From contig NZ_LGED01000158.1 in the NCBI RefSeq assembly GCF_001280085.1, positions 45,310 through 109,309 on the forward strand: 64,000 bases of DNA, read 5' to 3'. The translations under genes were made by a program, and so were the position numbers. The DNA comes from Saccharothrix sp. NRRL B-16348 (GTDB lineage: Bacteria > Actinomycetota > Actinomycetes > Mycobacteriales > Pseudonocardiaceae). Shown here in pieces: positions 12,925 to 38,213 of this stretch (positions are counted from its first letter, which is position 1; every line of letters starts with the position of its first letter). The notes beneath the pieces are model-generated. The model was not told where the DNA came from and made no database searches. It saw nothing but the letters and a program-made list of their open reading frames with translations.

Positions 12925-13908
12925 TCAGCTAGCGGCGGTGAGTGCCTTGCGCCCCAACAGGTCGATCGCGGCGTACACGCTGCGCAGGGTGGGCGCGGCG
13001 ACGCCGGTGAGCCGGGCGATCTCGACGACCGCGCCGATGATCGCGTCGGTCTCCAGCGCTTTGCCCGCTTCGAGGTCCTGGAGCATGGACGTCTTGTGGT
13101 GGCCGACGCGGTGGGCGCCGTCGATGCGCTTCTCGATGGAGACGCGGGGGTGGCAGCCGACGGCGCGGGCCACCGCGATGGTTTCGGTCATCATGAGGGC
13201 GACGAGCTCGCGGGTGTCGCGGTGCTCGCACATCTCGACCATGGTGGCGCGGGTGAGCGCGCTGAGCGGGTTGAACGCGACGTTGCCCATGAGCTTGACC
13301 CAGATGTCGTCGCGCAGGTCGGGTTCGATGGGTGCTTTGAGGCCGCCCGCGACCATGGCCTCGCTGAGTCGCGTGCCGCGCGCGGAGACGGTGCGGTCGG
13401 GTTCGCCGAGGGAGAAGCGGGTGCCCTCGACGTGCCGGATGACGCCCGGCGCCTCGATCTCGGTCGAGCAGTAGACGACGCAGCCGATCGCGCGCCGGGT
13501 GTCGAGGACGGCGCTGACGGTGCCGCCCGGGTCGACGGCCTCGATGCGGGTGCCTTCGAGGGGGTGGCCGGCGAGCCCGTGGAAGTACCACCAGGGGATG
13601 CCGTTCTGCGCGGCGACGACGGCGGTGTCCGGGCCGAGCAGGGGTGTGATGAGCGGGCCGCAGGCGGCGTACTGGTGTGCTTTGAGCCCGAGGAACACGT
13701 AGTCGACGTGGCCGATGTCGGCCGGGTCGTCGGTGGCGTGCGGTGCGGCGGTGAAGTCGCCGCGAGGGCTGTGGACCCGGACGCCGTGGCGGCGCATGGC
13801 TTCCAGGTGCGCTCCCCGTGCGACGAGGTGCACCTCCGCCCCGGCGCGGTGCAGTGCCGCGCCGACGTACGCGCCGATGGCTCCGGCTCCGAGAACTGCG
13901 ACTTTCAT
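12925..13908 (-). CDS. panE: PanE/ApbA-family reductase, candidate oxalyl-CoA reductase
   Basis: 327 residues from the ATG at 13908, preceded by GAGGG; a longer in-frame reading upstream crosses the operator and has no protein-like content. The NADP-binding GAGAIGAYVG lies at residues 7-16, with VARG marking the cofactor specificity loop, AAQNGIPWWY, the catalytic-type Lys in WVKLMGNVAFNPLSALT, and the C-terminal helical domain. Sequence alone says 2-dehydropantoate 2-reductase. However, in Methylobacterium extorquens the oxalyl-CoA reductase of oxalate assimilation (PanE2) belongs to this family, and here the gene carries the same upstream motif as the oxc, frc and formate dehydrogenase operons. 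A role making glyoxylate from oxalyl-CoA is therefore a serious alternative to pantothenate synthesis. Confidence 0.75.
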   Translation of the reverse strand: MKVAVLGAGAIGAYVGAALHRAGAEVHLVARGAHLEAMRRHGVRVHSPRGDFTAAPHATDDPADIGHVDYVFLGLKAHQYAACGPLITPLLGPDTAVVAAQNGIPWWYFHGLAGHPLEGTRIEAVDPGGTVSAVLDTRRAIGCVVYCSTEIEAPGVIRHVEGTRFSLGEPDRTVSARGTRLSEAMVAGGLKAPIEPDLRDDIWVKLMGNVAFNPLSALTRATMVEMCEHRDTRELVALMMTETIAVARAVGCHPRVSIEKRIDGAHRVGHHKTSMLQDLEAGKALETDAIIGAVVEIARLTGVAAPTLRSVYAAIDLLGRKALTAAS

Positions 13909-13930
13909 GACGTCCCTCGCCTTCGCAATG

Positions 13931-13953
13931 ATTGCATACAGTATGTTGTATGA
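13931..13953. promoter_or_regulatory. TTGYATAC operator, copy 1 (panE operon)
   Basis: ATTGCATACAGTATGTTGTAT, 22 bases upstream of the panE-family start. Shares ATTGYATACMGTAT with sites at 23833, 31921 and (inverted) 33145. The core fits the TnGTnnACnA half-palindrome typical of GntR/FCD regulators, one of which is encoded 150 bases to the right. Confidence 0.65.
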
Positions 13954-14032
13954 ACTACGCGAGCGATAGCCCCACCGGCGGCCGACGTGCGACGCCGGGA
14001 GGGCGCCACTCGGACGAGTGATCTCAAATTGC

Positions 14033-14057
14033 TTTTTGCATACGAAAATCTGTATGC
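14033..14057. promoter_or_regulatory. TTGYATAC operator, copy 2 (regulator gene)
   Basis: TTTTTGCATACGAAAATC followed by TGTATGC. The left half matches the TTTGYATACGA form shared with the site at 14937 and the right half CTGTATGC is an inverted repeat of GCATAC. It ends 42 bases before the GntR/FCD start, consistent with autoregulation. Confidence 0.6.
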
Positions 14058-14098
14058 TGAAGATCGGGCATTCCCGACACCTGCCCGAGGAGGCGACC

Positions 14099-14836
14099 GT
14101 GAGCCAGCCCAACGCGCCGCTGATCGGCGCGGGGAACACCCGTCGCGCGGCCCGCGAGTCGCTGAGCGGCGCCGCTTCCCGCAAGGTCGAGCGGCCCGCC
14201 CCGTTGCGCCAGGCCGTCTACGAGGCCCTGCTCGACCTGATCGTCAACCGTACCCTCAAGCCCGGGCAGCACCTCGTCGAGATCGAGCTGGCCGAGCACC
14301 TCGGCGTGAGCCGTCAGCCGGTGCGCGAGGCGCTGCAACGCCTGCAGACCGAGGGCTGGGTCGACCTGCGACCGGCACAGGGCGCGTTCGTGCACACGCC
14401 GACCGACGAAGAGGCCGACCAGCTCCTGTCCGTCCGCAACGTCCTGGAGACCCACTCCGCGAAGCTCGCCGCCGAGCACGCCACGGCCGAGGACGTCGCC
14501 GAGCTCAAGGCGCTGCAACGCGAGGGCGTCGAGGCGCTGAAGCAGAAGGACGTGGAACGCGTGGTCGCGGCCAACGCCGCCCTGCACGCGCGCATCACCC
14601 GGCTGTCCGGCAACGCCGTGCTGGCGGAGATGATCGCCACGGTCGACCGCCGGGTCCGCTGGTACTACGCACCGTTGGCGCTGACCCGCGGCAAGGACGC
14701 GTGGAACGAGCACGCCGAGCTGATCAAGGCGATCGCCGACCACGACCCCGAGGCCGCCGGCCGGGTGATGAACCGGCACACCGAGCGCACCCGGACGGCG
14801 TACCAGGCCCACATCGAGGGCAACGAGAGCCGCTGA
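14099..14836 (+). CDS. GntR-family regulator, FCD subfamily; proposed master regulator of the oxalate/formate genes
   Basis: 245 residues from a GTG at 14099, five bases after GAGGAGG. Residues ~35-100 are a GntR winged helix (LRQAVYEALLDLIVNRTLKPGQ...LAEHLGVSRQPVREALQRLQTEGWV). Residues ~115-235 form the all-helical FCD effector domain with three His in the expected metal-binding helices (AALHARI, EHAELIK, MNRHTER). FCD proteins bind small carboxylates or acyl-CoA-type ligands and usually repress. An operator-like motif precedes this gene and at least five other transcripts nearby. The gene stands alone between operators and ends in its own terminator. Confidence 0.85.
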   Translation: MSQPNAPLIGAGNTRRAARESLSGAASRKVERPAPLRQAVYEALLDLIVNRTLKPGQHLVEIELAEHLGVSRQPVREALQRLQTEGWVDLRPAQGAFVHTPTDEEADQLLSVRNVLETHSAKLAAEHATAEDVAELKALQREGVEALKQKDVERVVAANAALHARITRLSGNAVLAEMIATVDRRVRWYYAPLALTRGKDAWNEHAELIKAIADHDPEAAGRVMNRHTERTRTAYQAHIEGNESR

Positions 14837-14843
14837 GCGTGAC

Positions 14844-14865
14844 GGGGCCCACCACACCGGGCCCC
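14844..14865 (+). terminator. Terminator of the GntR/FCD gene
   Basis: GGGGCCC (14844-14850) and GGGCCCC (14859-14865) form a perfect 7-bp stem with an 8-base loop, beginning 8 bases after the stop codon and followed by TCTTC. Confidence 0.6.
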
Positions 14866-14936
14866 TCTTCGGAGCACCGAAGCCCAGTTCAGAACACCTG
14901 AATCGAGTACAGGTGACGGCCCTCACGCTACAAGCG

Positions 14937-14960
14937 TTTTGTATACGATAGCCTGTATTC
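14937..14960. promoter_or_regulatory. TTGYATAC operator, copy 3 (68-residue ORF)
   Basis: TTTTGTATACGATAGCCTG followed by TATTC. Nearly the same as copy 2 (TTTGCATACGAAAATCTGTATGC), with a second half-site CTGTATTC at the same spacing. It lies 130 bases before the small ORF at 15093, suggesting this transcript belongs to the same regulon and has a leader of up to ~120 bases. Confidence 0.55.
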
Positions 14961-15092
14961 TGGATGTAGCACCTCCGGCCGGTACCCCTGGTGCAAGTGC
15001 GGTCTACTGGATCGTGGAGCCGCCCCCGATGGCGCGGGCAGGCTCCGAGGAACGCTCACACCCGAGAATGAGCAAGGAAGGACTCGAGCCAG

Positions 15093-15299
15093 ATGAGTAC
15101 ACGCATGCCCGGATGGCAGCAACTCAAGCAGGCCCTGACCCGTCCGGCGGGGTTCTCCGCCGACGGCAGGCGCATCGGCCTCGGCCTGGACACCGCGATG
15201 GACGCCCAACGCCGGGAGACCGACCACGCCGTCGCGGACATCGAGCAGTACGCGAACGACCGGCGCAGCAAGGGCGAAGAGACCAGCACCATCTCCTGA
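15093..15299 (+). CDS. Small protein of unknown function behind a regulon operator
   Basis: 68 residues, MSTRMPGWQQLKQALTRP... ending ETSTIS. AAGGAAGGA lies 12 bases upstream of the ATG, a slightly long spacing. Codon third positions are strongly G/C as in real genes of this genome. The protein is hydrophilic, with an amphipathic C-terminal helix (ETDHAVADIEQYANDRRSK), no membrane segment and no cysteines. It matches no family I recognise. Because its promoter carries the same operator as the oxalate and formate genes, it may be a small accessory or regulatory protein of that pathway. It converges on the TerC gene, with a shared terminator between. Confidence 0.55.
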   Translation: MSTRMPGWQQLKQALTRPAGFSADGRRIGLGLDTAMDAQRRETDHAVADIEQYANDRRSKGEETSTIS

Positions 15300-15321
15300 C
15301 GGCCGTGGTCAGGCCCGACGA

Positions 15322-15358: not shown

Positions 15359-15362
15359 CGGC

Positions 15363-16355
15363 TCACGACCCGGCGGCGCCCTCCTGCCGCGCGTCCCGCT
15401 CGGCCCGCACGTCGGCCTGGCGCGACGCGAGCAGGCTCGCCGCGGTCGTGATCAGCAGCACCACGACGATGACCCCGAGGGACAGCAGGATCGGGATCTC
15501 CGGCGCCCAGGTGACGCCGTGGTGGTGCAGTGCTTCGAGGATCAGCTTCACCCCGATGAACGCGAGGATCACCGCGAGACCCTTGCCGAGGTGGACCAGC
15601 CGGTCGAGCAGGCCGCCGACCAGGAAGAACAGCTGGCGCAACCCCATCAGCGCGAACGCGTTGGCGGTGAGCACCAGGTAGGGCTCCTTGGTCAGGCCGA
15701 AGATCGCCGGGATCGAGTCCACCGCGAACAGCAGGTCCGTGGTGCCGACCGCGACCATCACGATGAGCATCGGCGTGACCACCCGCCGCCCGTCCACGCG
15801 GGTGGTCAACGCCGCGCCGTCGTACCGCGGGGAGGTCGGCAGCACGCGGCGCACCGCGCGCAGCGCCGCGTTCTCCTGGAACTCGCCCTCGTCGCCGCCC
15901 GGCCCCTCCTTCAGCAGCTTCCAGGCGGTGAAGATCAGGAACGCGCCGAAGACGTAGAACAGCCAGTCGAACCGGGAGATCGCCCCGGCCCCGAGCGCGA
16001 TGAACACCGCGCGCAGCAGCAGGGCGAGCACAACGCCGACGATCAGGACTTTCTGCCGGTACTCGCGCGGCACCGCGAACCGGCCCATGATCAGCACGAA
16101 CACGAACAGGTTGTCCACGCTGAGCGAGTACTCGGTGATCCACCCGGCGAAGAACTCGCCGCCGTACCGAGGACCCGCGAACGCGAGGACGCCGAGCCCG
16201 AACAGCACGGCCAGCCCGACGTACACCGAGACCGACACCAGCGATTCCCGGAACGACGGGTCGCGCGGGTTGCGCGCCACGAGGTAGAAGTCGAACGCGA
16301 TCACCGCGGCGATCCCGATCAACGTCGCGATCCAGACCCAGGTGGGGAGAACCAT
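15363..16355 (-). CDS. TerC/Alx-family integral membrane protein
   Basis: 330 residues with about eight to nine membrane segments. The TerC family, including Alx/MeeF-type proteins, is linked to manganese export and protection of exported metalloproteins. Visible signature segments are EYSLSVDNLFVFVLIMGRF (acidic residues of the first repeat) and LLFAVDSIPAIFGLTKEPY (second repeat), with a soluble loop between them (EGPGGDEGEFQEN...). It is the last gene of a six-gene leftward run that starts with the oxalyl-CoA decarboxylase-like gene, 24 bases after the preceding membrane-protein gene. Its position next to an Nramp-like transporter suggests paired control of a metal, perhaps linked to oxalate, which chelates divalent cations; this link is inference. 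Confidence 0.8.
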   Translation of the reverse strand: MVLPTWVWIATLIGIAAVIAFDFYLVARNPRDPSFRESLVSVSVYVGLAVLFGLGVLAFAGPRYGGEFFAGWITEYSLSVDNLFVFVLIMGRFAVPREYRQKVLIVGVVLALLLRAVFIALGAGAISRFDWLFYVFGAFLIFTAWKLLKEGPGGDEGEFQENAALRAVRRVLPTSPRYDGAALTTRVDGRRVVTPMLIVMVAVGTTDLLFAVDSIPAIFGLTKEPYLVLTANAFALMGLRQLFFLVGGLLDRLVHLGKGLAVILAFIGVKLILEALHHHGVTWAPEIPILLSLGVIVVVLLITTAASLLASRQADVRAERDARQEGAAGS

Positions 16356-16379
16356 CTGTGCGAGCCCTTCGCTAGCCGG

Positions 16380-16919
16380 TCACTTCGTCCGTGCCGTCGT
16401 CTCCCGGGCGGCACGTCTCCGCCGGGCGCGTGCCGACGACTCCCGCAGCACGCGGGCGTGCGTCACGTAGCGCTCGTACCACTGCTGGGCCAACGCGTTG
16501 CGCGCACGCACCTTGTCGAGCCAGTGCGGCGCGATCCGCTCGTGCAGCCACAGGAAGCCGATGGCCCAGCCGAAGCTGACGATGCCCTGGTAGGCGAGGA
16601 AACCGAGCACGTCGTCGGGCGGGGTGAACCCGCCGCCGAGGAGGAACCCCGTCGAGGTCTCCGCGACCAGCCTGGCTAGCGGGAAACCCACCAGCCAGTA
16701 CAGGGCGGCCGGTGCGAACACGCCGAGCCGGAACCGCCCGCCGCCGACGAGCAGGCCGAAGCCGCCGCCGAGCAGTCCGAGCGGCACGGCCATGGCCAGC
16801 GCGGTGGCGGCCGCCCACCCGGCGGGGTGGCCGACGAACGCCGACAACGCCCCGGCGATCAGGCCGCCGACCGCGCCGACGACGGCGCCGGGGACCGCCA
16901 ACTCCAGCCTGTCGCGCAT
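16380..16919 (-). CDS. Small integral membrane protein linked to the Nramp-like transporter
   Basis: 179 residues. The ATG at 16919 overlaps the stop of the transporter gene by one base (TGATG), implying coupled translation and fixing the start. Four hydrophobic stretches are visible (LAVPGAVVGAVGGLIAGAL; AATALAMAVPLGLLGGGFGLL; FAPAALYWLVGFPLARLV; FLAYQGIVSFGWAIGFLWL), followed by a basic cytoplasmic tail (SSARARRRRAARETTARTK). No family is recognised. Tight coupling suggests it is a subunit or chaperone of the Nramp-like transporter. Confidence 0.65.
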   Translation of the reverse strand: MRDRLELAVPGAVVGAVGGLIAGALSAFVGHPAGWAAATALAMAVPLGLLGGGFGLLVGGGRFRLGVFAPAALYWLVGFPLARLVAETSTGFLLGGGFTPPDDVLGFLAYQGIVSFGWAIGFLWLHERIAPHWLDKVRARNALAQQWYERYVTHARVLRESSARARRRRAARETTARTK

Positions 16920-18424
16920 CAGCCCACCACCACGCCGAACCGGAACAGGCTGTAGATCAGCATGCCGAGGTAGAACACCGCGCCGAACCCGATGATCAGG
17001 TTGGTGAGCAGCCTGGGTCGGATGGGTTTGGGCAGCATCCGGTTGTTCACCAGCAGCAGGACGACGCAGTACGCGCCCATGGCGAACGTGGACAGGAACG
17101 CGAGGATGTCGAGGATCGCGCCGGGTCCGTCGGCGGGCCCGAACAGCAGGATGACGATGCCGAACGCGATGACGCCCCACAGGAACCCGGCGTAGAGGTG
17201 GGACATGCGGAACCGCTTCGCGCCGGGCACGAAGTGGTAGGTCATGTCCGCCTGGCCGCGGGAGAACGAGTCGAACAGGCCCAGGGTGGCGTTGAGGCCG
17301 ATGAGCGCGATGAACCCGAGGAACACCCCGCCCAGCGCCGGTCCGCCCGCCGCGGCGAAGGAGTCGGACATGGCGTTGAGCGCGGCTTCCCGCTCCCCCG
17401 CCCGCAGCAGCTCCGTCACGTCGGGGCTGGTGCGGCTGGCGGCCTGCGCCAGCACCGTGAACGACACCGTGACCAGCATCGTGACGCCCCAGAACAGCAG
17501 CAGCGCGTCGAACGTGACCCAGCGTCGCCAGCCGCGCCACTTCGCCATCTCGGCGGGGTCGTCGGTGTCGAACATGAACCCGCGCGCGGGCATGGCCTCT
17601 TCCTCGCCGGCGTGGCGCAGGCCGCGGATGCGGGGGATGTGTGCGCCCATGCCGGCGCCGCTGTCGCGCAGGTGCAGCGTGTACCACATCTGCTGCATGC
17701 CGGACGGCCCGGCGAACGCGATGGAGCCGACGATGATCGGGAACCAGGCCGCGCTGAGCGCTTCGGGCGGCAGGTAGCCGAAGTGGAACATGCCGGTGAT
17801 GGTGGACACCACGTCGGACCAGGTGCCCACCATCGCGGCCACCACGGCCGTGCCGACCACGAGCAGCCCGATGAGCAGGGACAGCACGTTCTCCAGCAGG
17901 TTGTAGATCACCTTGGCCATGCTGAACAGGACGCCGACGAGGATCAGGCCGACGCACGCCGACACGGTCCACGGTATGCCGGTGAGCTCCTCCAGGGCGG
18001 CGGCGCCGGCGGAGAGGTGGCCCGGCCAGATGTAGACCAGGATCGCGACCGTGAAGAAGAACCACATGATCGGTTTGAACACGCGGGCCGCGCCGAAGAA
18101 GATGCTCTCACCGGTCGCCATCGCGTAGCGGGCCATCTCCAGCATGACCACGGCCTGCAGCGTCACGCCGATGAGGAACAGCCAGCGGATCTCCGGGCCG
18201 AACAGCAGCACCAGCCGCGGCCACATGTAGGACTCGCCCATGCCGACGCCGAGCGCGACGAGGAACACCGTCGGGCCGAGGATGTGGATGGAGGGCGGGG
18301 CGTCGGGCAGTTTCCTGATGGGCATCGCTTCCAGCCGCCCCGCCCGCCACACGCGTTCCTCCGGCGGAGGTGCGGTGACGTCCGCGCCCGACCGCGGCTC
18401 GGCGGGTGAGTTGGGTGTATCCAC
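16919..18424 (-). CDS. Distant Nramp-like transporter without the canonical metal-site motifs
   Basis: 501 residues, about eleven membrane segments in an APC/LeuT-like arrangement. It resembles the Nramp (MntH) superfamily, but TM1 reads GVGMGESYMWP where Nramp proteins have DPGN, and TM6 reads IAFAGPSGMQQMWY where they have MPH. The metal-coordinating Asp, Asn and Met are therefore absent, so ordinary Mn/Fe transport is doubtful. A long soluble loop (RDSGAGMGAHIPRIRGLRHAGEEEAM...) follows TM6. The gene is 48 bases downstream of the ADP-forming CoA ligase in the oxc operon. Oxalate uptake, metal-oxalate handling or transport of a different cation are all possible; none is shown by sequence. 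Confidence 0.65.
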   Translation of the reverse strand: MDTPNSPAEPRSGADVTAPPPEERVWRAGRLEAMPIRKLPDAPPSIHILGPTVFLVALGVGMGESYMWPRLVLLFGPEIRWLFLIGVTLQAVVMLEMARYAMATGESIFFGAARVFKPIMWFFFTVAILVYIWPGHLSAGAAALEELTGIPWTVSACVGLILVGVLFSMAKVIYNLLENVLSLLIGLLVVGTAVVAAMVGTWSDVVSTITGMFHFGYLPPEALSAAWFPIIVGSIAFAGPSGMQQMWYTLHLRDSGAGMGAHIPRIRGLRHAGEEEAMPARGFMFDTDDPAEMAKWRGWRRWVTFDALLLFWGVTMLVTVSFTVLAQAASRTSPDVTELLRAGEREAALNAMSDSFAAAGGPALGGVFLGFIALIGLNATLGLFDSFSRGQADMTYHFVPGAKRFRMSHLYAGFLWGVIAFGIVILLFGPADGPGAILDILAFLSTFAMGAYCVVLLLVNNRMLPKPIRPRLLTNLIIGFGAVFYLGMLIYSLFRFGVVVG

Positions 18425-18472: not shown

Positions 18473-20605
18473 TCACAGCAGCCCGGCGGAGCGGGCCCAG
18501 CGGTACTTGGCGCCGAGCACGGTGACCGGCTTCTCCGTGGTGTACGGGTAGGCGACGATGCCGTGCCGGTACAGGTGTTCACTGGCTTCTTCGACTTCCA
18601 CGTCGCCGGAGAGAGAGGCGACGACGGGCTTGTGGATCCCCTGGTCCCGGTAGTGCCGGACGACCTCGACCACGAGCTCGGCGAACACCATCGGCGGCGT
18701 GACGATGGTGTGCCAGTAGCCGAGGATCAGGGCGTGCACGCGCTCGTCCTCCAGGCCGAGCGCGATGGTGTCGCGGTAGGTGGAGGGCGGTTCGCCGCCG
18801 GTGATGTCGACGGGGTTGCCCGCCGCGCCGAACGGCGGGATGAACTCGCGGAACGCCGCGTCCAGGTCGGCCGGGATCTCCATGAGGGACAGTCCGTTGT
18901 CGACGCACGCGTCGGACAGCAGCACGCCGGAGCCGCCCGCGCCGGTGATGATGACGACGTTCTCGCCCTTGGGCGTGGGCAGCAGGGGCACGCCGCGCGC
19001 GTACTCCAGCATGTCGTTGAGCCCGGGCGCCCGGATGACGCCGCTCTGCCGCAGGATGTCGTCGTAGACCTTGTCGTTGCCGGCCAGTGCGCCGGTGTGC
19101 GAACTGGCGGCTTTCGCGCCCTGGGCGGTGCGGCCCGCTTTGAGGACCACGACGGGTTTCTTCGCCGACACCCGCTTGGCGGTCTCGGCGAACGCCCGGC
19201 CGTCCTTGAGGTCTTCCAGGTGCATGGCGATGAGTTGGGTGTTGTCGTCCTGCTCGAAGAACGTGAGCAGGTCGTCCTCGTCGATGTCCGCCTTGTTGCC
19301 GACACCGACGATGGAGGACACGCCCATCCGGGCGGAGCGGCTGAACCCGAGGATCGCCATGCCGATGCCCCCGCTCTGCGAGGACAGGGCGACCCCGCCC
19401 TTCACGTCGTACGGGGTGCAAAACGTAGCTGAAAGGTTTTCAGGTGTGTAGTAGTAGCCGTAGATGTTCGGGCCGAGGATGCGCACGCCGTGCTTGCGCG
19501 CGATGGTCACGACCTCGTCCTGCAGCTCGTGGTTGCCGGTCTCGCCGAAGCCGGACGGGATGAGGATCGCGCCGGCCACGCCCTTCGCACCGACCTCTTC
19601 GAGCGCGGCGGGCACGAACTTCGCCGGGATCGCGAACACCGCCACGTCCACGTCGCCGGGCACGTCGGCGATGCTCCGGTACGCCTTGCGGTCGAGGATT
19701 TCGTCCGCTTTGGGATTGATCGGGTAGATCTCGCCCCGGTAGCCGCCGTCGACCAGGTTGCGCATCACCGAGTTGCCGATCTTGCCGGTCTCGTTGGACG
19801 CCCCGATCACCGCGACCGCGGCCGGTTTCATGATCCGGTTCATCGACGCCAGGATGGCCTCCTGGGTGAACCGGAACGGCTCGCGCGCCGCGTCGGGGTC
19901 GACCAGGATCCGCACGTCCACGGCGGTGGCGCCGTCCGGTGTGGCCAGCACCGGGTTGAGGTCCACCTCGGCCAGTTGCGGGAAGTCCGTGACCAGGTCG
20001 CCGACCCGGCGGATCAGGTCGGCGAGCGCGGCGGTGTCGGCGGGCGGCGCGCCGCGCACACCGCGCAGGATCTCGGCCGCGGCGATGCCGTCCACCATGG
20101 ACCTGGCCTCGGCGGTGGTGGTCGGGGCGAGGCGGAACGTGACGTCCTTGAGCACCTCGACCAGCACGCCGCCCAGGCCGAAGGCGACGATCTTGCCGAA
20201 CGTCTCGTCCGTGGTCGCGCCGACGATGACCTCGTGGCCGGACGTCATCAGCTGCTGCACCTGCACGCCGACGATGTCCGCGTCGGCGTTGTAAGCGACC
20301 GCGTTGGCGATGATCGTGTCGAAGCCCGCGGCCACCTCGTCGGGCGTGGTCAGGCCCACCAGCACGCCGCCGGCCTCGGTCTTGTGCAGGATGTCCGGCG
20401 AGACGATCTTGAGCACGACCGGCAGGCCGAGGTCGGCGGCCAGCGCGACCGCGTCGTCCCGCGACGCGGCGAGGCCCTCGGCGGGGGTCGTGATCCCGTA
20501 GGCCTCGCACACCAGCCTGCCCTCGGGCGCGGTCAGCGAGTCGCGCCCCTCGGCGGTGACCGCCGCGATGATCCGTTCGACCGCTGCCCGGTCGTAGTCC
20601 GGCAT
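18473..20605 (-). CDS. ADP-forming acyl-CoA synthetase (acetate-CoA ligase family)
   Basis: 710 residues, single-chain NDP-forming ligase with the domains in beta-then-alpha order. Residues ~10-225 are an ATP-grasp domain (LGLPVVLKIVSPDILHKTEAGG), ~235-350 a CoA-binding Rossmann domain (AVAVIGASNETGKIG, YPINPKADEI), followed by two flavodoxin-like ligase domains containing SQSGGIGMAI and the phosphohistidine-type SSHTGALAGNDKVY. The family interconverts acyl-CoA plus ADP and acid plus ATP. It lies between the formyl-CoA transferase gene (72 bases upstream) and the Nramp-like gene. Here it might activate oxalate or a related acid, or conserve energy from formyl-CoA as ATP plus formate; the direction and substrate are inference. 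Confidence 0.8.
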   Translation of the reverse strand: MPDYDRAAVERIIAAVTAEGRDSLTAPEGRLVCEAYGITTPAEGLAASRDDAVALAADLGLPVVLKIVSPDILHKTEAGGVLVGLTTPDEVAAGFDTIIANAVAYNADADIVGVQVQQLMTSGHEVIVGATTDETFGKIVAFGLGGVLVEVLKDVTFRLAPTTTAEARSMVDGIAAAEILRGVRGAPPADTAALADLIRRVGDLVTDFPQLAEVDLNPVLATPDGATAVDVRILVDPDAAREPFRFTQEAILASMNRIMKPAAVAVIGASNETGKIGNSVMRNLVDGGYRGEIYPINPKADEILDRKAYRSIADVPGDVDVAVFAIPAKFVPAALEEVGAKGVAGAILIPSGFGETGNHELQDEVVTIARKHGVRILGPNIYGYYYTPENLSATFCTPYDVKGGVALSSQSGGIGMAILGFSRSARMGVSSIVGVGNKADIDEDDLLTFFEQDDNTQLIAMHLEDLKDGRAFAETAKRVSAKKPVVVLKAGRTAQGAKAASSHTGALAGNDKVYDDILRQSGVIRAPGLNDMLEYARGVPLLPTPKGENVVIITGAGGSGVLLSDACVDNGLSLMEIPADLDAAFREFIPPFGAAGNPVDITGGEPPSTYRDTIALGLEDERVHALILGYWHTIVTPPMVFAELVVEVVRHYRDQGIHKPVVASLSGDVEVEEASEHLYRHGIVAYPYTTEKPVTVLGAKYRWARSAGLL

Positions 20606-23753: not shown

Positions 23754-23832
23754 GTGCTGGTCAACTCCTTCGATCGCGGTCGGCCCGCCTCTGAGAGGTG
23801 GGGTCCCGACCCTGGAACCGGCCCGGTTGTAG

Positions 23833-23853
23833 ATTGCATACCGTATGGGGTAG
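23833..23853. promoter_or_regulatory. TTGYATAC operator, copy 4 (oxc operon / sucCD divergent promoter)
   Basis: ATTGCATACCGTATGGGG followed by TAG, in the 203-base gap between divergent oxc and sucC. It shares 13 of 14 core positions with copy 1 and sits 80 bases from the oxc start and about 104 from the sucC start, so one site could control both directions. Confidence 0.65.
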
Positions 23854-23956
23854 CCCATATAGTTACGCCTTGTTCGCGTCGATGTCCAGAGCTCGGAACG
23901 ATCGGGCCTTCAGCGCCCGTCATCGGCGCCCCACCGCGCGGAGAGGACTTTCTGCC

Positions 23957-25117: not shown

Positions 25118-25118
25118 G

Positions 25119-28042: not shown

Positions 28043-28052
28043 GAGCGTCACG

Positions 28053-31900: not shown

Positions 31901-31920
31901 GAGGACCACCCGCCTTGCAG

Positions 31921-31960
31921 ATTGTATACAGTATTGAGTAGCCTACTACCTTGTATGCAT
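31921..31960. promoter_or_regulatory. TTGYATAC operator, copy 5 (OFA transporter / moeA divergent promoter)
   Basis: ATTGTATACAGTATTGAG at 31921-31938, followed at 31951 by a half-site TTGTATGCAT. It lies 21 bases upstream of the transporter start and ~50 bases before moeA, so it can serve both directions. Confidence 0.65.
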
Positions 31961-31990: not shown

Positions 31991-33145
31991 ATGCGCATCC
32001 CCTGGACCGAGGCGAGGCAGGCGGCCCGCCAGGCGGGCAAGCCGCTTGACGTGGTGGAACTGCCGTTGACACAGGCGTCGGGCGCGGTGCTGGCGGCGCC
32101 GTTGCGGGCGCTGGCGGCCGTGCCGTCGTTCGACAACTCGGCGATGGACGGTTACGCCGTGGCCGGGCGTGGACCGTGGATCGTGGTCGGCCGGGTGCGC
32201 GCGGGCGGCGTGGCGGGTTCCCTGGACGACGGTCAGGCGGTCGAGATCGCGACCGGCGCGCCCGTGCCGTGCGGTGCGGACGCCGTGCTGCCGGTGGAGC
32301 ACGCCGAAGTCGCCGGCGCACTGGTGCTGGGCGACGTGGTGCCCGGTCGGCACATCCGGCGGGTCGGCGAGAGCTGCCCCGCCGGTGAACTGCTGCTGCC
32401 GACGGGCGCAGTGGTGACGCCCGCCGTGCTCGGGCTGGCGGCGAGCGTCGGCCACGACACCCTTGCCGTGCACCGACGCCCCCGTGTCGCGGCCGTGATG
32501 ACGGGAGACGAGGTGGTGACCGCCGGCGTGCCCGGCCCGGGACGGGTGCGCGACGCGATCGGGCCCATGCTGCCGGGGTTGGTGCGCGCGGCGGGCGGCG
32601 AGCACCTGGGGACCACGCACCTCACCGACTACCCCGGCGCGCTGATCGAGGCGTTGTGGGAGATCGACGCGGACGTGATCGTGGTTGGCGGCGCGACGTC
32701 AGTCGGACCGGCCGATCACCTGCACGAGGCGTTGCGGGTGCTGCGCGCGGACGTGCGGGTGGACGGTGTGGCGTGCCGTCCGGGTCATCCGCAGGTGTTG
32801 GCCGTGCTGCCGGACGGGCGGTGCGTGGTCGGGCTGCCCGGCAACCCGTTCGCCGCGCTGGCCGCCGGCGTCACGTTGCTGGCGCCGCTGCTGGAGGCGT
32901 TGTCGGGGCGTGAGGTCGGGCCGCCGTGGACGGTCAGGTTGCCGGCGGCGCGGGCGCACGCGCACGACACGCGGCTGGTGCCGGTGGTGGTGTCCGGGCC
33001 GGTCGGCGTGCCGGTGGGGCACGACCAGCCGGGGACGTTGTGGGGCGCGGCGTTGGCGGACGGGCTCGCGGTGGTGCCGCCGGGTTTTCGGGACGGCGTG
33101 GTGGAAGTCGTGCCTGTCCACAGCAAGACGATAAGCGTATGGTGA
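31991..33145 (+). CDS. moeA: Molybdopterin molybdotransferase
   Basis: 384 residues. MoeA inserts molybdate into adenylylated molybdopterin to finish the cofactor used by formate dehydrogenase. Visible: SFDNSAMDGYAV near residue 45-56, EIATGAPVPCGADAVLPVE, the MoCF-like domain with VAAVMTGDEVVTAGV and VVGGATSVGPADHL, and VVGLPGNPFAALAA near residue 280. The domain order and length are normal. Being placed directly before the fds genes, with its own and a further operator downstream, suggests a dedicated copy for this dehydrogenase. Its stop overlaps operator copy 6. Confidence 0.9.
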   Translation: MRIPWTEARQAARQAGKPLDVVELPLTQASGAVLAAPLRALAAVPSFDNSAMDGYAVAGRGPWIVVGRVRAGGVAGSLDDGQAVEIATGAPVPCGADAVLPVEHAEVAGALVLGDVVPGRHIRRVGESCPAGELLLPTGAVVTPAVLGLAASVGHDTLAVHRRPRVAAVMTGDEVVTAGVPGPGRVRDAIGPMLPGLVRAAGGEHLGTTHLTDYPGALIEALWEIDADVIVVGGATSVGPADHLHEALRVLRADVRVDGVACRPGHPQVLAVLPDGRCVVGLPGNPFAALAAGVTLLAPLLEALSGREVGPPWTVRLPAARAHAHDTRLVPVVVSGPVGVPVGHDQPGTLWGAALADGLAVVPPGFRDGVVEVVPVHSKTISVW

Positions 33146-33160
33146 ATACGGTATACAGTC
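33145..33160. promoter_or_regulatory. TTGYATAC operator, copy 6, inverted (fds operon)
   Basis: AATACGGTATACAGTC on the + strand; its reverse complement GACTGTATACCGTATT matches ATTGYATACMGTAT at 12-13 of 14 positions. It sits between the moeA stop and fdsG, 22 bases before the fdsG start, so the dehydrogenase operon can be controlled separately from moeA. Confidence 0.6.
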
Positions 33161-33182
33161 TGCGAGCGACAGTGGAGGCCCC

Positions 33183-33647
33183 ATGACCGTGGTGGAACGG
33201 GTGCTCGCCGTGATCGAGGCGCACCGCGGCGACCGGGGCGCGCTGCTCCCGGTCCTGCACGGCATCCAGGCCGAGTTCGGCTACGTCGACCAGTCGGTGA
33301 TCCCGCTGGTGGCCAAGGAGCTGAACCTGTCGCGTGCCGACGTGCACGGCGTCGTCACCTTCTACAGCGACTTCCGCAGCGAGCCCGCCGGCCGCGTCAC
33401 CGTGCAGCTGTGCCGCGCGGAGGCGTGCCAGTCGGTCGGGGCGGAGCGCTTGGTCGCACACGCAGAGGTGACGTACGGCGTGAAGGTGGGCCAGACCAGC
33501 GAGGACGGCGCGGTCACTCTCGGCCAGGTGTTCTGCCTCGGCAACTGCGCCCTCGGACCCGCCGCCCAGGTCAACGGGCGGCTGCACGGACGGCTCGACC
33601 CGGCCCGGCTCGACGGGCTGGTCGACGCGGAGATGGAGATGCGATGA
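33183..33647 (+). CDS. fdsG: NAD-dependent formate dehydrogenase, gamma subunit (NuoE-like)
   Basis: 154 residues, thioredoxin-like [2Fe-2S] ferredoxin family. Cluster ligands appear as two pairs: CRAEAC in LCRAEACQSVG and CLGNC in VFCLGNCALGP. The N-terminal helical part (LLPVLHGIQAEFGYVDQSVIPLVAKELNLS) is as in NuoE. It passes electrons between FdsA and the flavin subunit FdsB in the cytoplasmic complex. GTGGAGG precedes the ATG and the stop overlaps fdsB (ATGA). Confidence 0.92.
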   Translation: MTVVERVLAVIEAHRGDRGALLPVLHGIQAEFGYVDQSVIPLVAKELNLSRADVHGVVTFYSDFRSEPAGRVTVQLCRAEACQSVGAERLVAHAEVTYGVKVGQTSEDGAVTLGQVFCLGNCALGPAAQVNGRLHGRLDPARLDGLVDAEMEMR

Positions 33648-35191
33648 CCACCACCGTGTACGTCCCGCGCGACGCCGCCGCGCTCTCGGTCGGCGCGGAC
33701 GCGGTCGCCGCCGCGATCACCCGGGAAGCCGCGCTCGCGGGTCGGGCCGTCCGGGTCGTGCGCAACGGCTCGCGCGGCATGCTGTGGCTGGAGACGCTGG
33801 TCGAGGTGGTCACCGACGCCGGCCGGATCGGCTACGGGCCGGTGACCGCCGACGCCGTGCCCGCGTTGGTCGCGGCCGGGATGCTGGACGGCGCGCACCA
33901 CGAGCTGCGGGTCGGCGTGGTCGAGGAGCTGCCGTGGTTCCGGGCGCAGCACCGGCTGTGCTTCGCGCGCGTCGGCGTCACCGACCCGTTGTCGCCCGAG
34001 GACTACCTCGCGCACGGTGGGATGACCGGTCTGCGGCGGGCGTTGGAGATCGGACCGGCGGCCACGGTCGCCGAGGTGACCGACTCCGGGTTGCGCGGAC
34101 GCGGCGGCGCGGGGTTCCCGGCGGGCATCAAGTGGAAGACCGTCGCGGACACGCCCGGCGAGCTGAAGTTCGTGTGCTGCAACGCCGACGAGGGCGACAG
34201 CGGCACGTTCGCCGACCGGATGCTCATCGAGGGCGACCCGTTCTGCCTGATCGAGGGAATGGCCATCGCGGCCTTCGCGGTCGGCGCCACCGAGGGCTAC
34301 ATCTACATACGGTCGGAGTACCCCGAAGCGGTGCGGACGTTCCGCCGGGCGATCGACATCGCCTACGCGCAGGGGTGGCTCGGGGACGACGTGCTCGGGT
34401 CCGGGCTGAGGTTCGACCTGATGGTGCGGGTCGGCGCGGGCGCGTACATCTGCGGCGAGGAGACCTCCATGCTGGAGAGCCTGGAGGGCAAGCGGGGCGT
34501 GGTGCGGGCGAAACCGCCGATCCCCGCGATCACCGGCCTGTTCGGCAAGCCGACCGTGGTGAACAACGTGCTGACGCTGGCGTCCGTGCCCGCCGTGCTC
34601 GCCGACGGCGGCGCGTCCTACCAGGCGTTGGGCGTGCAGCGGTCGCGTGGCACGCAGGTGTTCCAGCTCGCGGGGAACATCGCGCGCGGCGGCGTGTTCG
34701 AGACGGCGTTCGGCATCTCGCTGCGTGACCTGGTCGAGGTGCACGGCGGCGGCACGCTGTCGGGTCGGCCGGTGCGCGCGGTGCAGGTGGGCGGGCCGCT
34801 CGGGGCGTACCTACCGGTGTCCGGGCTGGACCTGGCGATGGACTACGAGGCGTTCGCCGAGGCGGGCGCGATGCTCGGCCACGGCGGGATCGTGGTGTTC
34901 GACGACACCGTGGACATGGCGTCGATGGCGCGGTTCGCGTTCTCGTTCTGCGCGGAGGAGTCCTGCGGCAAGTGCACGCCGTGCCGGGTCGGCGCGGTGC
35001 GCGGGGTCGAGGTGATCGACCGGATCGTCGGCGGCGAGGACGTCGACGACAACCTGGCCCTGCTCGGCGACCTCTGCGAGCTGATGACCGACGGGTCGTT
35101 GTGCGCGATGGGCGGCCTCACGCCCAACCCGGTGCGGAGCGCGCTCCAGCACTTCGCCGACGACTTCACCCCAAGGAGGGTCACGCCGTGA
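33644..35191 (+). CDS. fdsB: NAD-dependent formate dehydrogenase, beta subunit (NuoF-like, NAD/FMN site)
   Basis: 515 residues from the ATG overlapping the fdsG stop. An N-terminal thioredoxin-like region (~1-110) precedes the NuoF core, as usual in Fds/Hox-type diaphorases. Visible: the FMN/NAD loop SGLRGRGGAGFPAGIKW near residue 150, NADEGDSGTFADR, GAGAYICGEETSMLESLEG, and the [4Fe-4S] ligands in ESCGKCTPCRVG plus the distal Cys in DGSLCAMGG. It reduces NAD with electrons from formate. It overlaps fdsA by GTGA. Confidence 0.94.
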   Translation: MTTTVYVPRDAAALSVGADAVAAAITREAALAGRAVRVVRNGSRGMLWLETLVEVVTDAGRIGYGPVTADAVPALVAAGMLDGAHHELRVGVVEELPWFRAQHRLCFARVGVTDPLSPEDYLAHGGMTGLRRALEIGPAATVAEVTDSGLRGRGGAGFPAGIKWKTVADTPGELKFVCCNADEGDSGTFADRMLIEGDPFCLIEGMAIAAFAVGATEGYIYIRSEYPEAVRTFRRAIDIAYAQGWLGDDVLGSGLRFDLMVRVGAGAYICGEETSMLESLEGKRGVVRAKPPIPAITGLFGKPTVVNNVLTLASVPAVLADGGASYQALGVQRSRGTQVFQLAGNIARGGVFETAFGISLRDLVEVHGGGTLSGRPVRAVQVGGPLGAYLPVSGLDLAMDYEAFAEAGAMLGHGGIVVFDDTVDMASMARFAFSFCAEESCGKCTPCRVGAVRGVEVIDRIVGGEDVDDNLALLGDLCELMTDGSLCAMGGLTPNPVRSALQHFADDFTPRRVTP

Positions 35192-37998
35192 CGATCTTGA
35201 AGGAACCGGACTTCGGCACACCGGCCTCGACGTCCTCGACCTCGGTGACGGTGGAGGTCGACGGCATCCCGGTGACCGTGCCGGCGGGCACGTCCGTCAT
35301 GCGCGCGGCCGCGACCAGCGGCATCGACATCCCCAAGCTGTGCGCGACGGACAGCCTGGAGGCGTTCGGGTCGTGCCGGCTGTGCCTGGTGGAGATCGAC
35401 GGCAGGCGCGGCACGCCCGCGTCCTGCACCACGCCCGTCGCCGACGGGATGAGGGTTCGCACACAGACGCCGAAGCTGGAGAAGCTGCGGCAGGGCGTGA
35501 TGGAGCTCTACATCTCCGACCACCCGCTGGACTGCCTGACCTGCTCGGCCAACGGCGACTGCGAGCTGCAGGACATGTCGGGCGCGGTCGGGTTGCGGCA
35601 GGTGCGGTACGGGTACGAGGGCGAGAACCACCTGTCGTTGGAGAAGGACACCAGCAACCCATACTTCGACTTCGAGCCGTCCAAGTGCATCTCGTGCTCG
35701 CGGTGCGTGCGGGCGTGCGGCGAGGTGCAGGGCACGTTCGCGTTGACCATCCAGGGGCGCGGCTTCGAGTCGCAGGTGTCCGCGGCCGGCGTGCCGTTGA
35801 TGGAGTCCGACTGCGTGTCGTGCGGCGCGTGCGTGCAGGCGTGCCCCACGGCGACGTTGCAGGAGAAGTCCGTGGTGCAGCTGGGGATGCCCAGCCGGAC
35901 GGTGCTGACGACGTGCGCGTACTGCGGTGTCGGGTGCTCGTTCAAGGCCGAGCTGCGCGGTGACGAGCTCGTGCGGATGGTGCCGTACAAGGACGGTGGC
36001 GCGAACGAGGGTCACTCGTGCGTGAAGGGTCGGTTTGCGTTCGGCTACGCCACGCACCCGGACCGGGTGATGTCGCCGATGGTGCGGGAGAAGATCACCG
36101 ATCCGTGGCGTGAGGTGTCGTGGGAGGAGGCGATCGGCTACACCGCGTCACGGATGCGGGAGATCCAGGCCGCGCACGGCGTCGGGGCGATCGGCGGCAT
36201 CACGTCGTCGCGGTGCACCAACGAAGAGGTGTACGTGGTGCAGAAGCTCGTGCGGGCGGCGTTCGGGAACAACAACGTCGACACGTGCGCGCGGGTGTGC
36301 CACTCCCCCACCGGGTACGGGCTGAAGCAGACGTTCGGCGAGTCCGCGGGCACCCAGGACTTCCGGTCGGTGGCGGCGGCGGACGTGATCGTGGTGATCG
36401 GCGCCAACCCGACCGACGGGCACCCGGTGTTCGCGTCGCGGATGAAGCGGCGGCTGCGGGAGGGCGCTTCGCTGGTCGTGGTCGACCCGCGGCGGATCGA
36501 CCTGGTGCGCTCGCCGCACGTCGAGGCCACCCACCACCTGCAGTTGCAGCCCGGCACGAACGTGGCCGTGGTGAACGCGTTCGCGCACGTCGTCGTGACC
36601 GAAGGGCTGGTGGACTCCGACTTCGTGGCGTCGCGCTGCGAGGGGTACGAGGAGTGGGCGGAGTTCATCGCGCGGCCGGAGAACAGCCCGGAGGTGGTCG
36701 AGTCGATCACGGGGGTGCCGGCCGCGGAGATCCGTGCGGCGGCGAGGCTGTACGCGACGGGCGGGAACGCCGCGATCTACTACGGGCTGGGCGTGACCGA
36801 GCACAGCCAGGGGTCGACCATGGTGATGGGCATGGCGAACCTGGCCATGGCCACCGGCAACGTCGGCCGTGACGGCGTCGGCGTGAACCCGTTGCGCGGG
36901 CAGAACAACGTGCAGGGGTCGTGCGACATGGGGTCGTTCCCGCACGAGCTGCCGGGCTACCGGCACGTGTCCGACGACGCGGTGCGCACGGTGTTCGAGC
37001 AGGTGTGGGGGCGCAGCATCCTGCCGACGCCCGGCCTGCGCATCCCGAACATGTTCGACTCGGCCATCGCCGGCACGTTCCGCGGGCTGTTCGTGCAGGG
37101 TGAGGACATCGCGCAGTCCGACCCGAACCTCGCGCACGTGACGGCGGCGTTGACCGCGATGGACCTGGTCGTGGTGCAGGACCTGTTCCTGAACGAGACG
37201 TCGAAGTTCGCGCACGTGTTCCTGCCCGGCACGTCGTTCCTGGAGAAGGACGGCACGTTCACCAACGCCGAGCGCCGGATCAACCGGGTGCGGCCGGTGA
37301 TGGCGCCGAAGACCGGCAAGCACGAGTGGCAGATCGTGTGCGAGCTGGCGGCGGCGCTGGGCTACGACATGCCCTACACGCACCCGCGCGAGATCATGGA
37401 CGAGATCGCGGCGCTGACGCCGACGTTCGCCGGGGTGTCGTTCGCCGCGCTCGACCGGCTGGGCAGCATCCAGTGGCCGTGCGACGAGGACGCGCCGGCC
37501 GGCACGCCGACCATGCACGTGGACTCGTTCACCCGCGGCAAGGGCAGGTTCGTGCCGACGTCGTTCGTGCCGACGAGCGAGCGCACGACCCGCAAGTTCC
37601 CGTTGATCCTGACGACGGGGCGGATCCTGAGCCAGTACAACGTGGGCGCGCAGACCAGGCGGACGGCGAACATCGCCTGGCACCCGGAGGACGTGCTGGA
37701 GATCCACCCGCACGACGCCGAGGTGCGCGGGATCGGCGACGGCGACTCGGTCACGCTGGCGAGCCGGGTCGGCGCGACGTCCCTGCACGCGGTCATCTCC
37801 GACCGCATGCCGGTGGGTGTCGTGTACACGACGTTCCACCACCCCGTGACCGGGGCGAACGTGGTGACCACGGAGAACTCCGACTGGGCGACCAACTGCC
37901 CGGAGTACAAGGTCACCGCGGTCCAGGTCGCCCTCCGCGCCGACGCCGCCGAGGCCGCGGCGGTCCCGGGCACGCGTGAACGGGCGGTCGTCGACTGA
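35188..37998 (+). CDS. fdsA: NAD-dependent formate dehydrogenase, alpha (molybdenum catalytic) subunit
   Basis: 936 residues. GTG at 35188 overlaps the fdsB stop. N-terminal NuoG-like electron relay: [2Fe-2S] (CATDSLEAFGSCRLC...SC), the His-ligated cluster region HPLDCLTCSANGDC, two [4Fe-4S] ferredoxin clusters (CISCSRCVRAC; CVSCGACVQAC), and the catalytic-domain [4Fe-4S] beginning CAYCGVGC. The molybdenum ligand is Cys, not selenocysteine, in CARVCHSPTGYG (near residue 371), with the following His conserved. Bis-MGD binding segments such as GANPTDGHPVF and the C-terminal NSDWATNCPEYK are intact. This oxygen-tolerant class oxidises formate to CO2 in the cytoplasm and needs FdhD. Confidence 0.95.
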   Translation: MTILKEPDFGTPASTSSTSVTVEVDGIPVTVPAGTSVMRAAATSGIDIPKLCATDSLEAFGSCRLCLVEIDGRRGTPASCTTPVADGMRVRTQTPKLEKLRQGVMELYISDHPLDCLTCSANGDCELQDMSGAVGLRQVRYGYEGENHLSLEKDTSNPYFDFEPSKCISCSRCVRACGEVQGTFALTIQGRGFESQVSAAGVPLMESDCVSCGACVQACPTATLQEKSVVQLGMPSRTVLTTCAYCGVGCSFKAELRGDELVRMVPYKDGGANEGHSCVKGRFAFGYATHPDRVMSPMVREKITDPWREVSWEEAIGYTASRMREIQAAHGVGAIGGITSSRCTNEEVYVVQKLVRAAFGNNNVDTCARVCHSPTGYGLKQTFGESAGTQDFRSVAAADVIVVIGANPTDGHPVFASRMKRRLREGASLVVVDPRRIDLVRSPHVEATHHLQLQPGTNVAVVNAFAHVVVTEGLVDSDFVASRCEGYEEWAEFIARPENSPEVVESITGVPAAEIRAAARLYATGGNAAIYYGLGVTEHSQGSTMVMGMANLAMATGNVGRDGVGVNPLRGQNNVQGSCDMGSFPHELPGYRHVSDDAVRTVFEQVWGRSILPTPGLRIPNMFDSAIAGTFRGLFVQGEDIAQSDPNLAHVTAALTAMDLVVVQDLFLNETSKFAHVFLPGTSFLEKDGTFTNAERRINRVRPVMAPKTGKHEWQIVCELAAALGYDMPYTHPREIMDEIAALTPTFAGVSFAALDRLGSIQWPCDEDAPAGTPTMHVDSFTRGKGRFVPTSFVPTSERTTRKFPLILTTGRILSQYNVGAQTRRTANIAWHPEDVLEIHPHDAEVRGIGDGDSVTLASRVGATSLHAVISDRMPVGVVYTTFHHPVTGANVVTTENSDWATNCPEYKVTAVQVALRADAAEAAAVPGTRERAVVD

Positions 37999-38213
37999 TG
38001 AGCGGCACGACCCCACCCACCGTCCGCCTGGCGAACGAGATAGCCCGCCAGTTCGCCCACCAACCCCCGTCCTCCGCCGCGACCGCCATCGCCGGCCACA
38101 TCGAGCGCTTCTGGGACCCCCGGATGCGCACCGACCTGCAACACCACGTCGCCACCGCCCCAGAGTCCCTGGACCCGGTGGCGCTGGCGGCGGCCAAGCT
38201 GGTCGGCTCCTGA
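37998..38213 (+). CDS. fdsD: Formate dehydrogenase delta subunit
   Basis: 71 residues starting at the last base of the fdsA stop (TGATG). VRLANEIARQFAHQPP, IAGHIERFWDPRMR and the C-terminal LDPVALAAAKL match the small FdsD family, which is needed for assembly or activity of soluble formate dehydrogenases. It completes the fdsGBAD set; fdhD (fdsC) lies in the divergent operon instead of inside this one. Confidence 0.9.
   Translation: MSGTTPPTVRLANEIARQFAHQPPSSAATAIAGHIERFWDPRMRTDLQHHVATAPESLDPVALAAAKLVGS

Follow-up and report, generated by a model that had tools for sequence, protein, structure and literature searches.

A local GntR-type regulon predicted to serve oxalate use in Saccharothrix, with a putative unrecognised family of oxalyl-CoA decarboxylases

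What holds together a run of genes for a formyl-CoA transferase (Frc), CoA ligases and a formate dehydrogenase in Saccharothrix sp. NRRL B-16348, and which of the encoded enzymes would decarboxylate oxalyl-CoA? The genes lie in a stretch of 64,000 nucleotides (contig NZ_LGED01000158.1, positions 45,310 to 109,309 of the forward strand), here called the window, for which an initial annotation had proposed that six copies of an operator motif link a GntR-type regulator with an FCD domain to a complete gene set turning oxalate into CO2. In our analysis the observation is confirmed, the case for a regulon is strengthened and the reading of one enzyme is changed: the cluster is probably a local regulon in which an FCD-type GntR protein controls oxalate use, and its thiamine diphosphate (ThDP)-dependent enzyme is predicted to represent a second family of oxalyl-CoA decarboxylases. 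As a whole, both the local regulon and the pathway appear to be of a known kind, the unrecognised element being the predicted decarboxylase.

All six reported sites are present in the sequence, the last of them at 33146-33159 on the minus strand (33145 had been given). The scores below come from a weight matrix of 28 positions, trained on 26 28-mers that include the six window sites.

13929..13956, plus strand: operator 1, upstream of the panE-like gene; exact match, matrix score 40.7
14033..14060, plus strand: operator 2, before the regulator gene; perfect inverted repeat GCATAC-N8-GTATGC, score 42.6
14936..14963, plus strand: operator 3, before an open reading frame (ORF) of 68 amino acids; score 35.4
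23831..23858, plus strand: operator 4, between the divergent ThDP-enzyme and sucC-like genes; exact match, score 34.4
31919..31946, plus strand: operator 5, between a major facilitator superfamily (MFS) transporter gene and moeA; exact match, score 38.5
33137..33164, minus strand: operator 6, before fdsG; core 33146-33159 with one mismatch, score 24.8, the weakest of the six

Searching both strands of the window with ATTGYATACMGTAT and up to three mismatches yielded six rows of matches at four places, namely 13931, 23833 and 31921 without a mismatch and 33146-33159 on the minus strand with one; shuffling gave a mean expectation of 0.56 rows, and none of 100 shuffles reached six (the largest number was five). 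The pattern GYATAC-N8-GTAK is found in register at five sites, the one at 33146 being the exception. All six represent one element, which comes in two forms: CATAC-N-GTATG, to which a third half is added at +8, and GYATAC-N8-GTATGC, in which the middle half is missing. The two sites that had been set apart as merely related (14033 and 14937) turn out to be the same element as the others. The matrix scores of the six range from 24.8 to 42.6 in the window scan, and the remaining eight of the 14 best matches (20.3 down to 3.1) all overlap these sites, on the other strand or shifted. Operator 4 consists of a CATAC-C-GTATG core plus a third half, GTAG, and is near-identical across loci of Pseudonocardiales; operator 1 is kept upstream of panE in loci of Saccharothrix, Umezawaea and Amycolatopsis.

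The specificity of the motif is apparent from the strain's own genome (10,894,815 bases in 278 contigs). There GYATACN8GTAKNC has five exact rows at four places, all inside the window (none for the reversed-pattern control), and TTGYATACMGTAT with up to one mismatch occurs at four places, again all inside the window (one for the control). A looser form, TGYATACN8GTAKNC with one mismatch, gives 11 rows, seven in the window and four outside; since the latter are no more numerous than the four control rows, they are at chance level. The genome-wide motif scan that the annotation had suggested thus did not find the motif to be equally common elsewhere, its strict forms being restricted to the window. 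Shuffles, own-genome scans and reversed controls together rule out chance or composition as the source of the motif.

The order of genes beside the sites is borne out by the ORFs and by matches to family models, with scores and cut-offs given in bits.

12925..13908, minus strand: PanE/ApbA-family reductase, candidate oxalyl-CoA reductase judged by its sequence (NF005089, 457.4, cut-off 223; PF02558/PF08546; substrate predicted)
14099..14836, plus strand: FCD-family GntR regulator (PF07729, PF00392; GTG start picked by eye, the ORF opening at 14018)
15093..15299, plus strand: 68-amino-acid ORF behind operator 3 (no Pfam match)
15363..16355, minus strand: TerC/Alx family membrane protein (TIGR03718, 366.9, cut-off 246.4)
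16919..18424, minus strand: NRAMP-related transporter, candidate importer of the operon's substrate (NF037982, 478.5, cut-off 50)
18473..20605, minus strand: ADP-forming acyl-CoA ligase, acs (NF045493, 566.5, below 1300; TIGR02717, 480.4, below 567.15; Pfam domains)
20678..21907, minus strand: formyl-CoA transferase Frc (TIGR03253, 657.9, over the cut-off of 504.2)
21996..23753, minus strand: ThDP enzyme in the position of oxalyl-CoA decarboxylase (OXC), predicted from sequence comparison and exchange pattern to be a non-canonical oxalyl-CoA decarboxylase
23957..25117, plus strand: sucC-like CoA ligase beta subunit (NF001913, 500.1, cut-off 370)
25119..26000, plus strand: sucD-like CoA ligase alpha subunit (NF004230, 427.4, cut-off 336)
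27107..28051: SigJ-like ECF sigma factor (TIGR02957, 280.4)
29339..30313, minus strand: FdhD, formate dehydrogenase sulfurtransferase (NF001943, 391.5, cut-off 269; the ORF starts upstream of the real start)
30590..31900, minus strand: MFS transporter of the OFA/lactate kind (PF07690; all other models below cut-off)
31991..33145, plus strand: MoeA-like molybdopterin enzyme (best models below cut-off, 195.8 of 534)
33183..33647, plus strand: FdsG, gamma subunit of NAD-formate dehydrogenase (NF004638, 200.4, cut-off 198)
33644..35191, plus strand: FdsB-like beta subunit (TIGR01959, 433.9, below 558.65)
35188..37998, plus strand: FdsA, formate dehydrogenase alpha subunit (TIGR01591, 912.5, cut-off 666.25)
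37998..38213, plus strand: FdsD delta subunit (PF11390, 72.1, cut-off 27)

The Fds formate dehydrogenase thus reaches its alpha, gamma and delta models and stays below the beta model, TIGR01959.

Is the association of motif and genes kept beyond this strain? A regulator search of the species collection returned 74 loci, 44 of which contain TTGYATACN8GTAKNC (22 bases) exactly; in loci of Saccharothrix, Amycolatopsis, Lentzea, Kutzneria and Umezawaea it stands before panE, before the regulator gene and before the ThDP/sucC pair. Another 55 loci (578 kb) with more distant regulators come from Streptomyces, Saccharopolyspora, Micromonospora, Nocardioides and others and include the Amycolatopsis locus L068, some loci being from the same genome twice; in these the 26-site matrix found 85 matches scoring above 11, compared with 0.0 in five first-order Markov resamplings. 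Among 120 genomes of the family (as in our wider sample below, close relatives are not independent of each other), 47 have the regulator (E<=1e-40), 46 have the ThDP enzyme (E<=1e-150) and 44 have the two together; in 42 of these 44 the pair lies on one contig within 12.6 kb. Exact matches to TTGYATACMGTAT number 36 in 19 of the 120 genomes (seven for the reversed control), and these genomes all carry the ThDP enzyme (19/19) and, save one, the regulator (18/19). Thirty of the 36 matches served as loci found by the motif first, and 26 of them adjoin panE, gntR, ThDP, sucC, ofa, moeA, fds or fdhD-like genes. Control at a distance is indicated by genome G044, where the site before fdsG lies 1.4 Mb from the regulator, and by G020 and G058, where sites precede ofa-like genes on contigs other than that of the regulator.

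The idea that one regulator and one operator link these genes has thus gained from the recurrence of the same motif-gene links in other genera, unlinked places included, and judged by sequence a regulon with one shared operator and one FCD-GntR protein is well supported. Close synteny as the mere reason for the motif is ruled out by the distant genera, the unlinked fds and ofa sites and the drifted sites of Streptomyces. As regards the proposed content of the regulon, the oxalate genes, the MFS transporter, moeA and the NAD-formate dehydrogenase hold, but fdhD lacks a separate operator in the window. At L091, a locus found by the motif first in a different genome, fdhD is the matched gene closest to the site. 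Exact motifs away from core genes in L100 (G053), L101 (G041) and L088 (G066) may mark further targets or be due to chance.

The assignment of the regulator itself agrees with both Pfam domains, which are over their cut-offs (PF07729, 92.8 bits against 24.3; PF00392, 69.4 against 27), and its best named match is from Saccharothrix luteola (96%). The recognition helix reads SRQPVREAL in 10 of the 11 rows shown and SRQPIREAL in the remaining one. FCD domains use an Asp and three His as metal ligands. In the regulator family all 95 of 95 alignment rows have N158, H162, H204 and H226 (the count beginning with the residue behind the initiator); the three His are retained throughout and an Asn occupies the position of the Asp. 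A metal-bound carboxylate such as oxalate may, we infer, be the inducer. The protein shares its domains, PF00392 and PF07729, with the FCD-GntR carboxylate regulators represented by the LldR, PdhR, GlcC and NanR models, and also resembles them in that it would govern a local regulon and, through a site close to its own gene, its own expression; it differs in the invariant Asn and falls far below all curated equivalog models of this kind (the best being phnR_burk, 107.8 of 271.5 bits). In the open-licence full-text literature we found no description of the operator (CATAC-N-GTATG, GYATAC-N8-GTAKNC) together with this regulon content. Contig C34 of genome G327 (L173, L066) harbours four paralogues of the regulator, 62-67% identical to that of the window, together with three copies of frc.

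The position of the operators relative to promoters bears on the mode of control.

23859..23888, minus strand: predicted promoter of the ThDP-frc-acs operon (-35 TGGACA, 18 bp, -10 AACTAT, operator 4 directly after)

With a promoter pattern chosen after viewing the alignment (TGGACA, 17-18 bases, NANNNT, read away from sucC), the operator at the ThDP operon starts 0 or 1 base downstream of the -10 hexamer in 17 of the 21 loci examined. A protein bound right behind the -10 box would cover the transcription start, which is the position of a repressor, and the promoter geometry here accordingly argues for repression as far as sequence can tell. Inspection by eye suggests that, at the regulator, most of the loci displayed have a TATNCT sequence resembling a -10 box within the second half-site (TATGCT in operator 2), and that the site before fdsG follows a -10-like box in the window and in L104.

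The gene that the annotation had named oxc requires a different reading. Its product has the three Pfam domains of the ThDP enzyme fold and stays below the cut-off for all 25 families listed, including OXC (TIGR03254, 247.5 bits, cut-off 739.4), 2-hydroxyacyl-CoA lyase (NF058623, 372.2, cut-off 600) and an acetolactate-synthase-like family (NF004516, 522.7, cut-off 587). The active-site residues of OXC given in PMC10192776 are Y120, E121, Y483 and S553; the alignment places Leu-Gln at the first two positions and neither Tyr nor Ser at the last two, being uncertain near the C terminus. Three motifs of its own, among them the C-terminal YAPGT(M/V)NQTMYK, are invariant in 47 of 47 family members, and in a tree the 13 sampled members form one clade (99/99) apart from OXC; a count of three changes for the tree's 'OXCcanon' label is an artefact of some canonical OXC genes having been binned twice as 'other'. 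The best 120 protein matches are called acetolactate synthase, thiamine pyrophosphate-binding protein or similar, and 'oxalyl-CoA decarboxylase' is not among the truncated names listed for them. An ordinary OXC is thus ruled out by model score, missing key residues and the scan of the family genomes, none of which (0/120) has a canonical OXC over the cut-off that the Escherichia coli control passes. A canonical OXC elsewhere in the strain's own genome was looked for as well, and the only TIGR03254 match at E<=1e-60 is the ThDP gene of the window. What the enzyme has in common with canonical OXC is the fold, the frc neighbour and a mutual exchange between the two; it is only 28-29% identical to it.

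This exchange is best seen in a class-wide sample of 296 genomes (Frc and OXC by model cut-offs, ThDP enzyme at E<=1e-200, regulator at E<=1e-50). Frc occurs in 25 of them, OXC in 10 and the ThDP enzyme in 20, and the 25 Frc genomes are made up of 20 with the ThDP enzyme and five with canonical OXC, none having both or neither. Every ThDP genome carries Frc (20/20), the two genes being 17-97 bp apart. The regulator is found in 27 genomes: all 20 with the ThDP enzyme, two of the five with Frc and OXC (G220 and G327, closest to the window's regulator at 67-69%), and five without Frc. In G220, locus L174 combines canonical OXC, fdsDABG, matrix sites and a regulator of 69-70% identity, while 12 kb away, in L175, the sucC|frc-acs arrangement keeps promoter and operator and has no ThDP gene in its 182-base gap; L065 and L066 likewise keep promoter and operator in a gap between sucC and frc without the ThDP gene. 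Two Streptomyces loci (L056, L058) have a canonical oxc-frc pair at a distance of roughly 1 kb from a regulator of 63% identity. Because the two enzymes exchange in this manner, we take this as a gene displacement, with the same job done by a different family, and predict from the sequences that the ThDP enzyme belongs to an unrecognised family of oxalyl-CoA decarboxylases that is commonly annotated as acetolactate synthase.

Several findings weigh against the interpretation as a whole, regulon and decarboxylase. Five canonical-OXC genomes have no Frc over the cut-off, five of the 27 regulator genomes lack Frc, and three of the 25 Frc genomes (G168, G278 and G310) have no regulator at E<=1e-50, G310 having matrix matches by oxc. 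The Fisher values for the class-wide co-occurrence (9e-27 and 1.9e-5) ignore kinship and overstate it, because close relatives are not independent. The exact 22-base motif is missing from 30 of the 74 regulator loci, mostly of Streptomyces with drifted sites; in four of the 30 motif-first loci (L088, L093, L100, L101) core pathway genes are absent from the nearest 1.5 kb; and the strict promoter pattern fails in four of the 21 loci (L049, L052, L069, L164). Finally, the nearest solved structures to the ThDP enzyme are 2-hydroxyacyl-CoA lyases, with 280 bits for AcHACL and 233-265 for other lyases as compared with 190-208 for OXC.

The last point leads to the question of whether the ThDP enzyme might be a short-chain 2-hydroxyacyl-CoA lyase, the regulon then breaking a 2-hydroxy acid down to an aldehyde or ketone plus formyl-CoA, with Frc moving CoA from formyl-CoA onto that acid and Fds removing formate. 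AcHACL, the best match among solved structures, releases formyl-CoA, the lyase model scores higher than that of OXC (372.2 against 247.5 bits, both below cut-off), Q128 of AcHACL aligns with a Gln, an aldehyde dehydrogenase gene is located at 11376-12914, and the gene cluster of AcHACL includes a GntR gene too, according to PMC7176365. However, E493 of AcHACL, described as catalytic in PMC8760513, aligns with Ile; Frc passes the equivalog model for oxalate; the company of frc and oxalate-type genes differs from the hcl and mpdBC of the AcHACL cluster; and in Frc genomes without the ThDP gene it is canonical OXC that replaces it, under the same regulator and operator. We therefore regard a lyase as quite unlikely.

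The other doubts concern the motif and its reader. It could belong to promoters read by an alternative sigma factor rather than be a GntR operator, the SigJ-like ECF factor at 27107-28051 (280.4 bits to TIGR02957) being encoded inside the cluster and the sites lying near the starts of transcription units; yet of the 74 regulator loci L005 alone has a similar sigma gene, the regulator is present in 18 of the 19 motif genomes, and the motif is palindrome-like, has half-sites in both orientations and, at the ThDP operon, comes after a -35/-10 pair distinct from it, all of which makes this very improbable. That the GntR protein binds the sites as an activator or a mixed regulator and not as a plain repressor seems unlikely: no promoter could be assigned at panE and in the MFS/moeA region, whereas at the ThDP operon the site begins 0 or 1 base behind the -10 hexamer in those 17 of 21 loci, and the fdsG site (window and L104) appears by eye to follow a -10-like box as well.

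For the preferred reading, an oxalate regulon under a repressor, we infer the following course of events, from binding and ligand to repression and every enzyme activity. In the absence of inducer, a dimer of the regulator would sit on the CATAC/GTATG half-sites of the six operators and block transcription, at the ThDP-frc-acs operon by occluding the transcription start immediately downstream of the -10 box. Oxalate or a product (oxalate, oxalyl-CoA, formyl-CoA or glyoxylate) would bind the FCD domain and free the sites. Oxalate might then be taken up by the NRAMP-like protein of the operon and by the OFA-like MFS protein at 30590, and be activated by Frc and/or the ADP-forming ligase; the ThDP enzyme would split oxalyl-CoA into formyl-CoA and CO2, Frc would hand the CoA of formyl-CoA on to the next oxalate, and the formate would be oxidised by FdsABGD, assisted by MoeA and FdhD. 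Some of the oxalyl-CoA could be channelled by the PanE-like enzyme into glyoxylate, to be used for growth.

The latter step concerns the proposed completeness of an oxalate-to-CO2 set, in which the pathway genes do belong to the regulon but a probable assimilatory branch, marked by the panE-like gene with its own operator, had been omitted. Judged by its family, this gene may encode an oxalyl-CoA reductase making glyoxylate. PanE2 is the name of the oxalyl-CoA reductase of Methylobacterium extorquens. In L043 and a number of Amycolatopsis loci, genes close to the cluster encode enzymes that we take, by eye and from characteristic motifs, to be Gcl-like (30-31% identical to the ThDP enzyme), and such enzymes together with the PanE-like gene would fit a glyoxylate branch. 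Reduction of oxalyl-CoA to glyoxylate by aerobic methylotrophs is described in PMC3720670.

The ligase gene adjoins frc in all 49 loci scored, which were selected for it, and the next gene encodes an OFA-like MFS protein in 33 of them and an NRAMP-like protein in 16; terC is present in 14 of the 16 NRAMP-like loci (in one at only 35% identity) and in none of the 33 others. The OFA transporter of the annotation is an MFS protein (PF07690) and belongs to the regulon, but it misses both OFA-type models (103.4 of 335 bits to the oxalate/formate antiporter TIGR04259 and 105.8 of 374.85 to the OFA family model), and its substrate is for this reason a prediction. DPGN and MPH are functional motifs of NRAMP transporters. 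The NRAMP-like protein contains neither string and remains below the cut-off of PF01566 (16.2 bits, cut-off 29.8) while reaching NF037982; phmmer matched it to no solved structure at E<=1. Its AlphaFold model is of low confidence (mean pLDDT 64), only the fold class being usable, and this predicted fold resembles NRAMP metal transporters and EleNRMT, the best Foldseek matches being DraNramp (TM 0.63 by query, 0.80 by target) and EleNRMT. ORFs similar to the 68-amino-acid ORF occur in several relatives' loci with terC and the NRAMP-like gene.

It is conceivable, if rather doubtful, that the second decarboxylase family of actinobacteria, with its different active site, goes along, in one branch of the system, with entry of oxalate as a metal-oxalate complex through the NRAMP-type protein, surplus metal leaving by TerC. 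The decarboxylase half of this proposal follows from the exchange with canonical OXC, and the transport half from the alternation of the transporter slot (33 versus 16) with terC in 14 of the 16. Against the metal-oxalate route, the window also has the OFA-like gene with an operator of its own, both transporter kinds occur together in L027 and L031 (two of the 16) and in L179, and the two kinds follow genus lines. No description of NRAMP proteins in connection with oxalate was found in the open-licence full-text literature. The exchange of transporters allows a direct test of an NRAMP-type importer of organic acids or metal-acid complexes.

Compared with the known frc-oxc operons (yfdW/yfdU of E. 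coli, Oxalobacter), the window has the same-equivalog Frc beside a ThDP enzyme and a formate dehydrogenase later in the pathway; it differs in a decarboxylase of another family and in the additional ADP-forming CoA ligase and PanE-like gene, in place of which the E. coli region has yfdV and yfdE. We found no description of the role of this regulon or enzyme, of a matching regulator or of oxalate enzymes of Amycolatopsis and Kribbella in the open-licence full-text literature. If our reading is true, counts of oxalate degraders based on oxc miss much of the actinobacterial pathway, 20 of the 25 class-wide Frc genomes being without canonical OXC. The 1396 OXC sequences of PMC7190790 are reported to form one connected network at 50% identity, and the ThDP family, at 28-29% identity, would not join it. 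Formyl-CoA chemistry could also take a fresh start from this enzyme family, and from the regulon one would gain a defined operator as well as a candidate sensor for oxalate.

Other genes on the panE-like side of the cluster include the aldehyde dehydrogenase gene at 11376-12914. Genes for a glucarate-type dehydratase and a 5-dehydro-4-deoxyglucarate dehydratase lie at 3571-7238 with a divergent IclR-type regulator, whose nearest model is BhcR (165.4 of 350 bits, below its cut-off). The acyl-CoA dehydrogenase-like ORF at 10221-11357 has only the N-terminal Pfam domain and an odd C terminus, and is possibly decayed or frameshifted.

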